A DNA stretch of 35,255 nucleotides from Nitrospinota bacterium (GTDB lineage Bacteria; Nitrospinota_A; UBA7883): positions 1 to 35,255 of the forward strand of contig JACQZB010000115.1 of assembly GCA_016207925.1 (NCBI GenBank). The letters run 5' to 3'. The notes beneath the pieces were generated by a model. The model was not told the DNA's origin. It saw only the letters and a program-made list of their open reading frames with translations, and made no database searches. The translations under genes and the position numbers were made by a program. Shown here piece after piece: positions 3,543-5,262 of this stretch (its first letter is position 1; the number at the start of each line of letters is the position of its first letter).

Positions 3543-3854
3543 GACCCCCTCAAGGGCGCTGGGTAGTATGAGAGCGTTTATCTGAACGCTGACGATCCTG
3601 GCCGGAGGCGAGGCCAAAATTTGGAAACGAGTATCGTTTAACAACGGTTCCCGCCCCCACTCAGGCTTTGACGACCTCGCCCAAGGAAAAGAGCATAATG
3701 TTCTACTGCGGGCTGGGCACTGGCAAAATAACTTGAACACGGTGATGCTGCCTAACCTGTTCGGACGAGAGGGAGATTCCCGCGCAACAGCTAGCCGCAT
3801 CGCTAGCCAAGCGATCACCGTGGGTTATAAAAATGCATTAATCCATTGATATAT
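3543..3854. other. intergenic stretch with one operator copy
   Basis: No convincing gene is visible. A minus-strand ORF overlaps this stretch but shows no family features and runs antisense through the XRE gene, so it is treated as a shadow. A small inverted repeat (AGCGTT at 3573-3578, AACGCT at 3585-3590) lacks a following T tract. The 12-mer AGCATAATGTTC at 3692-3703 is an exact copy of the site at 3250-3261. Confidence 0.4.
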
Positions 3855-3929
3855 TGGAGCCAGCGGTGGGGATTGAACCCACGACCTGCTGATTACGAAT
3901 CAGCTGCTCTACCACTGAGCTACGCTGGC
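3855..3929 (-). tRNA. tRNA-Thr (anticodon CGU)
   Basis: Read on the minus strand, the cloverleaf is complete: acceptor stem GCCAGCG/CGCTGGC, D arm GCTC-AGTGGTA-GAGC, anticodon stem GCTGA/TCAGC around loop TTCGTAA, short variable loop AGGTC, and T arm GTGGG-TTCAATC-CCCAC. The central loop triplet is CGT, giving a tRNA that reads ACG threonine codons. The 3' CCA is encoded in the DNA at 3855-3857 after a T discriminator. It marks the right edge of the first accessory segment, but no duplicated tRNA end was found. Confidence 0.95.
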
Positions 3930-4191
3930 TCAAAAGAGCTGATATTGTAGCATAAGGCATGAACCGGAATATCGGGATCATGCGTGGCTCAATGAAAAAT
4001 TGCAGGTTATATCATTAATCCCATCTGGCGCCACGATTTCACCTCACACAAAACATGCGCTACGTTTTCGTATCTATGAGATATGTGATTGATTTATATC
4101 GCATAACTCATTTGGGTGCTTTGGGTGTGAAGCGGGTGGGTAGCATTTTAGTCGGGCTTGGCGCTGGTTGGCGCATCAGCCGCAGTGAGTA

Positions 4192-4222
4192 TAATCATAT
4201 AAATCAAATACATATATGATTA
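4192..4222. promoter_or_regulatory. perfect 10-bp inverted repeat upstream of the sRNA promoter
   Basis: TAATCATATA (4192-4201) and TATATGATTA (4213-4222) form a perfect dyad separated by 11 bases. The right arm ends eight bases before the -35 of the candidate sRNA promoter, a usual position for an activator or repressor. The two arm centres are 21 bases apart, two helical turns, which suits a symmetric dimer on one DNA face. No regulator can be named from the sequence. Confidence 0.45.
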
Positions 4223-4229
4223 GATCGTG

Positions 4230-4258
4230 TTGGCATAAGTGATGCATAAACCTATATC
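4230..4258 (+). promoter_or_regulatory. sigma70-type promoter of the candidate sRNA
   Basis: The -35 is TTGGCA (4230-4235), followed by a 17-base spacer and a -10 TATATC (4253-4258). Transcription would start near 4265, immediately before the first hairpin. No reading frame of useful length follows before the terminator at 4342-4379. Confidence 0.5.
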
Positions 4259-4264
4259 AGCTAG

Positions 4265-4380
4265 CTAGGATGTAAGGACGCCTCCTCATCTCGCCCTTAC
4301 ATTTCGATAGCATTCGGATCAAATCCGGATAACTTAGGGCAACGGCCTCGAGAGCTCCTCCTCGAGGCCGTATTTTTTTG
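4265..4380 (+). ncRNA. candidate small RNA with three hairpins and C-rich loops
   Basis: An approximately 115-nt transcript is predicted between a sigma70-type promoter and a strong terminator, in a 590-base gap without genes. Hairpin 1 pairs ATGTAAGG (4270-4277) with CCTTACAT (4295-4302); its 17-base loop exposes CCTCCTC (4281-4287). Hairpin 2 pairs ATTCGGAT (4312-4319) with ATCCGGAT (4323-4330). Hairpin 3 is the terminator, whose 8-base loop carries CTCCTC (4355-4360). CCUCCUC is complementary to Shine-Dalgarno sequences, a design known for several bacterial sRNAs that block translation. I do not recognise a known RNA family (not 6S, SRP, tmRNA or RNase P). A cis-acting leader is less likely because the terminator ends the transcript before the next gene. 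Confidence 0.55.
4342..4379 (+). terminator. intrinsic terminator of the candidate sRNA
   Basis: A perfect 11-bp stem, ACGGCCTCGAG (4342-4352) with CTCGAGGCCGT (4361-4371), closes an 8-base loop and is followed, after one A, by seven T (4373-4379). This is the clearest rho-independent terminator in the window. Confidence 0.9.
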
Positions 4381-4409
4381 TATAAAAATTAAACTTACGA
4401 TTATTGTGA

Positions 4410-4438
4410 TTGACCGGGCCATTGGGTTTTGTTATTCT
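4410..4438 (+). promoter_or_regulatory. possible promoter of the 4525 gene and prfB
   Basis: TTGACC (4410-4415) lies 17 bases from TATTCT (4433-4438), giving a leader of about 80 bases before the ATG at 4525. It is downstream of the sRNA terminator, so the operon needs its own promoter. The -10 matches only four of six consensus positions. Confidence 0.4.
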
Positions 4439-4524
4439 TTCCTGCAAAATATCTGGAAATTCAGGGTTTTATAATCGCTTGGCGCGGGCGGCGGTTCAAG
4501 ACAGCACGAGGATAAAACAGCTCC

Positions 4525-5262
4525 ATGGGTGACCTTAAGAACCAGATTTTCCTTCAGCATATTGACGGAGCCTTGGCCAGAGTGCGCGAGGAAATGATCC
4601 GCAAATACACGCCCAAAAAAGAGAACCGTTTCCTCTTCAAGGACATAACTTATGAAATCGGTTCTTGCCACATTAATGCCAACGGCAAGTTCGAGTTTGA
4701 AATAAGCTCCAAAATTCCGCAGAACATTCTTCCCAATCAGGCGGGTATCAACCGCTATTTCCGGGAAGTGGTGCGGGTGATGAACAAATCCGCCAAGCGC
4801 CCCTTGACTTCCAAGATGGAAAACATCATTCATAACGCCGAGTTGGAGTACAAGGAACGCGATTACGTGAAGCTTGCCTTTGAGTACGATGAAGACGATC
4901 TGTATTCCACGCAGGAGGTGGAAAAACGGCTGCGGCATCACGTCGCCAAGCGCATTCCCGTGCCGGACATTCCGGGTGTGGCCACGCCGTTCGGCAAGCT
5001 GGTGATTGTCATGATGACGGAAAGCATGGAAGAATTCATCCGTCAGAACATAAACGACCTGATAAAAGCCAATGAATTGGTGAAGGCGAATTACAAAGCG
5101 CCGGCTCCCAAAAAGGCGGCGAAAAAACATGCGGCGAAAAAGCCTCACCGGCCCGCCAAACGTTCCGTGGCGGTTAAAAAACCCCCCAGAAAAAAAGCGG
5201 CCTCCCGCCCCGCGATGAAAAAGAAAAAAGGGGCGGGGTGGAAACCGGCGCGCAAACGATGA
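4525..5262 (+). CDS. protein of unknown function with histone-like basic tail
   Basis: A 245-residue protein. Residues 1-195 form a folded, mixed alpha/beta-looking domain with no signal peptide or membrane segment (for example FKDITYEIGSCHINANGKFEFEISSK and IPDIPGVATPFGKLVIVMM, approximate reading). From about residue 195 to the end it becomes an Ala/Lys/Pro/Arg-rich tail (PKKAAKKHAAKK, PPRKKAAS, KPARKR), like histone H1-type or ribosome- and DNA-associated bacterial tails. The tail suggests nucleic-acid binding; that is inference from composition. I do not recognise the N-terminal domain. Its TGA overlaps the prfB ATG in an ATGA junction, so prfB translation is probably coupled to it. Only a distant AGGA precedes its own ATG. 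Confidence 0.75.
   Translation: MGDLKNQIFLQHIDGALARVREEMIRKYTPKKENRFLFKDITYEIGSCHINANGKFEFEISSKIPQNILPNQAGINRYFREVVRVMNKSAKRPLTSKMENIIHNAELEYKERDYVKLAFEYDEDDLYSTQEVEKRLRHHVAKRIPVPDIPGVATPFGKLVIVMMTESMEEFIRQNINDLIKANELVKANYKAPAPKKAAKKHAAKKPHRPAKRSVAVKKPPRKKAASRPAMKKKKGAGWKPARKR

Follow-up and report, generated by a model that had tools for sequence, protein, structure and literature searches.

The stretch at 4265-4380 of this Nitrospinota contig, whose full 35,255 nt were analysed and are called the window here, raises the question of whether a terminated run of hairpins exposing anti-Shine-Dalgarno (aSD) motifs is a small RNA (sRNA) gene and, if so, what switches it on and what its product does. 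A preliminary description had proposed a transcript of about 115 nt starting at 4265, with a sigma-70 promoter, three hairpins and two loops complementary to Shine-Dalgarno (SD) sequences. The two motifs are indeed where they had been placed, CCTCCTC at 4281-4287 and CTCCTC at 4355-4360 (the latter continuing as CTCCTCCTC up to 4363), and the fold of 4265-4380 is considerably more stable than that of shuffled sequences (z = -4.5). The features of the locus are as follows.

4027 to 4043, plus strand: upstream site A of a pair of enhancer-like motifs, GGCGCCACGATTTCACC
4056 to 4074, plus strand: upstream site B, TGCGCTACGTTTTCGTATC (consensus GGCGCCACGTTTTCGTGGC), ~29 nt from site A
4231 to 4245, plus strand: sigma-54 -24/-12 box, TGGCATAAGTGATGC, with GG at 4232-4233 and GC at 4244-4245
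4257 to 4379, plus strand: predicted sRNA of ~123 nt, from the start suggested by the sigma-54 box (+/- 2) through the terminal T run
4268 to 4304, plus strand: hairpin 1, stem 4268-4277/4295-4304, CCTCCTC in the loop
4312 to 4330, plus strand: hairpin 2, ATTCGGAT / ATCCGGAT
4331 to 4341, plus strand: single-stranded linker, AACTTAGGGCA (consensus AACTTAAGGCA)
4342 to 4379, plus strand: terminator hairpin, stem 4342-4352/4361-4371, CTCCTC in the loop, T run at 4373-4379

As a discrete unit the element held up, while its 5' end had to be moved: placing the start 12 nt past the GC of the sigma-54 box gives a probable start near 4257. A transcript folded from there (z = -4.07) forms all three of the hairpins that had been described, with CCUCCUC looped out by a stem of 8-10 bp (mean unpaired 0.96) and CUCCUC by that of the terminator (mean unpaired 0.84); when folding began at 4265 instead, the first hairpin was mispaired. 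The terminator, with 11 pairs, 8 of them G-C, followed by seven T, is strong, and no other was found in 3850-4530. In agreement with the earlier claim that the stretch is non-coding, no reading frame within the predicted transcript reaches 8 aa. The linker that stays unpaired between the last two hairpins is strongly conserved (alignments A3 and A5), and could be a seed or a protein site.

A DNA search of 60 genomes matched the 3' 70 nt of the element in seven others, all from the same family or order. A covariance model of this 3' part (R1) matched 10 of the order's 12 genomes; the remaining 12 genomes of the phylum, whose sample comprises only 24 species, gave no match. An eleventh copy (locus L051) was assigned to genome G011 on the strength of an upstream site matching G011:C139, so that the element is present in 11/12 genomes of the order. 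The exception is G004 (1.7 Mb, 99% complete), which has no R1 match and matches the upstream-site pattern only twice, and loosely. R1 also found nothing around other loci labelled Nitrospinota or Tectomicrobia in 17 genomes, a set that held no positive control. A second R1 match in G009 (L131) was set aside as a chance terminator with no promoter box at that place. One close relative, L052, has no R1 match upstream of the same downstream gene and carries a transposase-like remnant there, at the contig start (1-130, read by eye).

The stems change with compensation among these relatives. Across the 11 copies as aligned, standard pairs fill 93% of pair cells and 11/19 pairs show changes on both sides (22 cells); the covariation score was 0.411 compared with 0.198 for shuffled alignments. 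On none of five measures did any of 500 shuffles come up to the real alignment, and slid controls were far lower. This alignment was fitted to the model and thus leans to structure, and 8 of the 11 copies had first been aligned without a model. In the terminator stem 7/11 pairs changed on both sides with 99% of cells paired (11 copies), and in hairpin 2 the figures were 4/8 and 84% (11 sequences). The loops behave differently: CTCCTC of the terminator is invariant (11/11), and that of the 5' hairpin keeps CCTC in 10/11 relatives and the full CCTCCTC in only 6/11. Three relatives (L003-L005) have an additional hairpin with a CCCCCC loop, which the window does not have, and others have C-rich variants. 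The predicted transcripts of the relatives fold with z of -2.2 to -7.3, and no reading frame common to them as a whole was found. Judged by this comparison, the element is a real sRNA-type gene and not a product of chance.

Upstream of it, the conserved promoter-type sequence has the form TGGCac-N5-wTGC. TGGC and TG are invariant in all 11 regions and the final C is present in 10, and the GG-N10-GC spacing is kept in 10/11. When 70 nt were aligned on GG in the 11 regions, the only columns above 1.2 bits were TGGC, the next A, C (9/11) and TGC 8 nt on. Since these columns match the sigma-54 -24/-12 consensus, we read the box as a sigma-54 promoter. TGGC-N8-TGC occurs in 10/11 upstream regions against a shuffled mean of 0.1; this and the shuffle figures for the upstream sites describe a contrast and are not test P-values, since the motifs were chosen after viewing the sequences. 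The gene for sigma-54, rpoN, is present in G000 and in 22/24 genomes of the phylum. Altogether, the sequences suggest that the sRNA gene is very probably switched on by regulated sigma-54 rather than by an ordinary promoter.

Sites A and B fit this reading. Counting upstream from the GG of the box, all 11 relatives have a half-site of the GGCGCYAC type at a distance of 100-260 nt (shuffled mean 0.3/11, maximum 3), and two copies or halves of the palindrome are found ~155-205 nt upstream of the box in 11/11, usually 28-31 nt apart. In the near-complete genome G007 the sole match without mismatch to the upstream-site pattern is the sRNA locus, and elsewhere total match counts are near those of the reversed-pattern control. 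The two sites would thus be activator-binding sites, placed like enhancers. An NtrC-type site was rejected, as the NtrC consensus spaces its half-sites differently. Neither the upstream-site pattern nor the sigma-54 pattern outlined a regulon, counts being mostly near the reversed-pattern controls. G000 has many candidates for the enhancer-binding protein (27 AAA+ matches, some weak), and comparing its AAA+ activators with those of G004, which lacks the sRNA, left too many to narrow down.

What might the RNA do? The invariant CTCCTC loop is a perfect complement of the SD core, and the element shares the general features of aSD sRNAs, with no reading frame, aSD motifs in conserved unpaired loops and covarying stems (the transcript itself being predicted). 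No Hfq was found in 23 genomes of the class, with five control genomes positive, and no ProQ in the 12 genomes of the order. Our preferred reading, to which we give a probability of about 0.72, is a stand-alone sRNA gene triggered by sigma-54 and an activator, whose product represses translation through its aSD loops independently of Hfq. Comparison of genomes supplies the gene, stems, loops, promoter box, upstream sites and RpoN gene of this picture, with Hfq and ProQ genes undetected; transcription, the activator, pairing with mRNAs and the targets are predicted parts of it. Sigma-54 RNA polymerase would sit at the -24/-12 box until an enhancer-binding protein on the paired palindromes ~155-205 nt upstream activates it upon a signal. 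The RNA of ~123 nt would stop at its own terminator and display C-rich aSD loops on its 5' and terminator hairpins, and these loops may then pair in trans with GGAGG-type ribosome-binding sites of several mRNAs, blocking translation without Hfq. In the window 10/33 genes carry a 4-nt SD core compared with 15% expected (P ~0.02, many starts being uncertain); this is no more than a modest excess over background, so that targets may be few. We also entertain, as a speculation that we hold to be somewhat improbable, a bolder version: in a lineage where neither Hfq nor ProQ is detectable, an enhancer pair serving one sRNA gene alone would govern an RNA with two to three loops that imitate the aSD tail of the 16S rRNA. 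Such an RNA would be a translation switch thrown by a signal, needing no chaperone, gated by sigma-54 alone and perhaps broad in reach.

The same RNA could act as a sponge, its C-rich loops sequestering an RNA-binding protein or a second sRNA instead of base-pairing with numerous mRNAs. Sigma-54-dependent sponge sRNAs are known in CrcZ and CrcY (PMC6292655), and several repeated C-rich loops, including the CCCCCC loops of relatives, would suit such a role. We consider it unlikely, as Hfq, the obvious known partner, was not found in the class and the invariant loop fits the SD core exactly.

Still less probable is that the element is a cis-acting leader or attenuator of the gene at 4525-5262, which begins ~146 nt past it and is followed by prfB. 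In most relatives, too, the element lies upstream of this gene (220-295 aa), with prfB next. However, a transposase-like gene takes its place in L006 and a von Willebrand A-like gene in L008, and the sRNA is kept in both, which indicates that the element is probably autonomous. Furthermore, the spacing to the downstream gene varies from 146 to 317 nt across loci, and no alternative antiterminator was seen to the terminator with its seven T. Nor is the neighbour an obvious target of the sRNA, since it has no strong SD in most relatives. Its product gave no Pfam match at E 0.001; the protein has a K/A-rich tail and relatives in at least 80 loci, mostly labelled Nitrospinota or Tectomicrobia. Near the start of the window, a serine-recombinase gene at 782-2362 (Resolvase, Recombinase and Zn-ribbon domains) suggests a mobile element nearby.

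The preliminary description had given the locus a sigma-70-type promoter, which would make it a housekeeping sRNA. The letters for this do exist in the window (TTGGCA-N17-TATATC), but at the same position the relatives match only 0-4 of 6 letters of the -10 consensus, and their best sigma-70 scores are at the level of shuffled sequence except in the window and L006. As the -10 hexamer is not conserved and the sigma-54 box is the sole conserved promoter-type sequence, we abandon the sigma-70 promoter and regard a housekeeping sRNA as very improbable. Finally, the terminator is the most strongly conserved part, yet there is hardly any chance that the element is only a conserved terminator or a chance GC-rich palindrome, as no plus-strand gene ends just upstream and the promoter box, the upstream sites, two more hairpins and the loop sequence are conserved as well.

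The sRNA predicted by our preferred reading was then set against known families. At gathering thresholds, the Rfam scan of the window found only a tRNA (tRNA-Thr(CGT), 3855-3929, minus strand, by ARAGORN), which bears out the earlier impression that no known family is represented. The best-scoring Rfam model, ar14/NfeR1 of the alphaproteobacteria (RF02344), aligns end to end with the window across the loops at 25.1 bits (E 0.0044 on 221 nt), far short of its gathering cut-off of 58.8, and it scores 25-32 bits also at unrelated C-rich terminators elsewhere in these genomes. It gave no match at E <= 1 in L003-L009, L030, L031 and L051, and none over the cut-off in 23 genomes of the class. Membership failed by motif as well, as ar14 needs an identical CCUCCUCCC unpaired in each of three hairpins and the window has it in part (CCUCCUC, CUCCUC) with none in hairpin 2, and by promoter, as ar14 requires a sigma-70 CTTAGAC-N17-CTATAT and here a sigma-54 box is conserved instead. 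The failed ar14 test and the absence of an Rfam match lead us to call the element a new sRNA family. The resemblance is nevertheless in kind: ~123 nt, aSD-loop hairpins including one in the terminator, and stems that diverge while loops are kept. NfeR1 (ar14) of Sinorhizobium is an Hfq-independent aSD repressor whose loops occlude the SD; its promoter is of the sigma-70 type and lacks a sigma-54 signature (PMC10746234). For the element studied here, Hfq independence would be consistent with finding no hfq gene in the class. The differences are the phylum and the loops, CCUCCUCCC throughout in NfeR1 and CUCCUC in the window. SmelA075 and SmelA099 of Rhizobiales likewise repeat aSD loops on variable stems (PMC3927594), but have CCUCCUCCC in every loop and belong to a different phylum. 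According to the same authors, covariance models discriminate poorly for multi-loop aSD sRNA families (PMC3927594), so remote kinship to ar14 is possible.

For control, the closest parallels are RNAs of other structure. Qrr RNAs work together with Hfq and are not known to depend on aSD loops; CrcZ is longer, has CA-rich motifs and titrates Hfq and Crc, whereas Hfq was not found here; and Campylobacter, too, is not known to have Hfq. The Qrr RNAs of Vibrio are ~100-nt sRNAs under LuxO control with a sigma-54 promoter and enhancer sites (PMC10162802), an arrangement and a kind of sRNA similar to ours, and Rfam showed no sequence relation between Qrr and the window element. In Pseudomonas and Azotobacter, sigma-54 together with an enhancer-binding protein controls the sRNAs CrcZ and CrcY (PMC6292655). 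CJnc230 (FlmE) of Campylobacter jejuni is RpoN-dependent and carries an aSD motif, but it is processed from flgE mRNA to 98 nt with CCUU in a single-stranded stretch (PMC11187230), whereas here an autonomous sigma-54 promoter is predicted and the aSD motifs are in loops. Qrr, CrcZ and CJnc230 thus share RpoN control with the element, not structure. The sRNA is probably an autonomous, Hfq-independent repressor in trans with NfeR1-like action and Qrr/CrcZ-like control, and we rate the family as new, with a known mode of action in a new control arrangement.

In the open-access literature searched, we found no paper pairing Nitrospinota with small regulatory RNA, and the family is a comparatively well-supported riboregulator for an uncultured Nitrospinota lineage. 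It would place aSD-loop sRNAs well outside the alphaproteobacteria and join one to sigma-54/enhancer control in cells without recognisable Hfq or ProQ. As this combination occurs in a small, clearly bounded gene, chaperone-free SD targeting becomes directly testable.

Other C-rich hairpins were seen in passing. In the sister order (family f6), six loci (L033, L037, L040, L041, L042 and L047) have a different CU-rich hairpin with the loop TAACTCCTCCTCCTCTC, located at a gene stop codon and followed by a GC-rich terminator (e.g. L037 ~1530-1620); where read, the product of that gene has a CxxCH haem-type motif. This hairpin is possibly a 3'UTR-derived aSD RNA. Furthermore, L032, L038, L039 and L044 have post-gene terminators whose loops hold runs of ~6-11 C and match ar14 weakly, those in L038 and L039 coming after peroxiredoxin-like genes.
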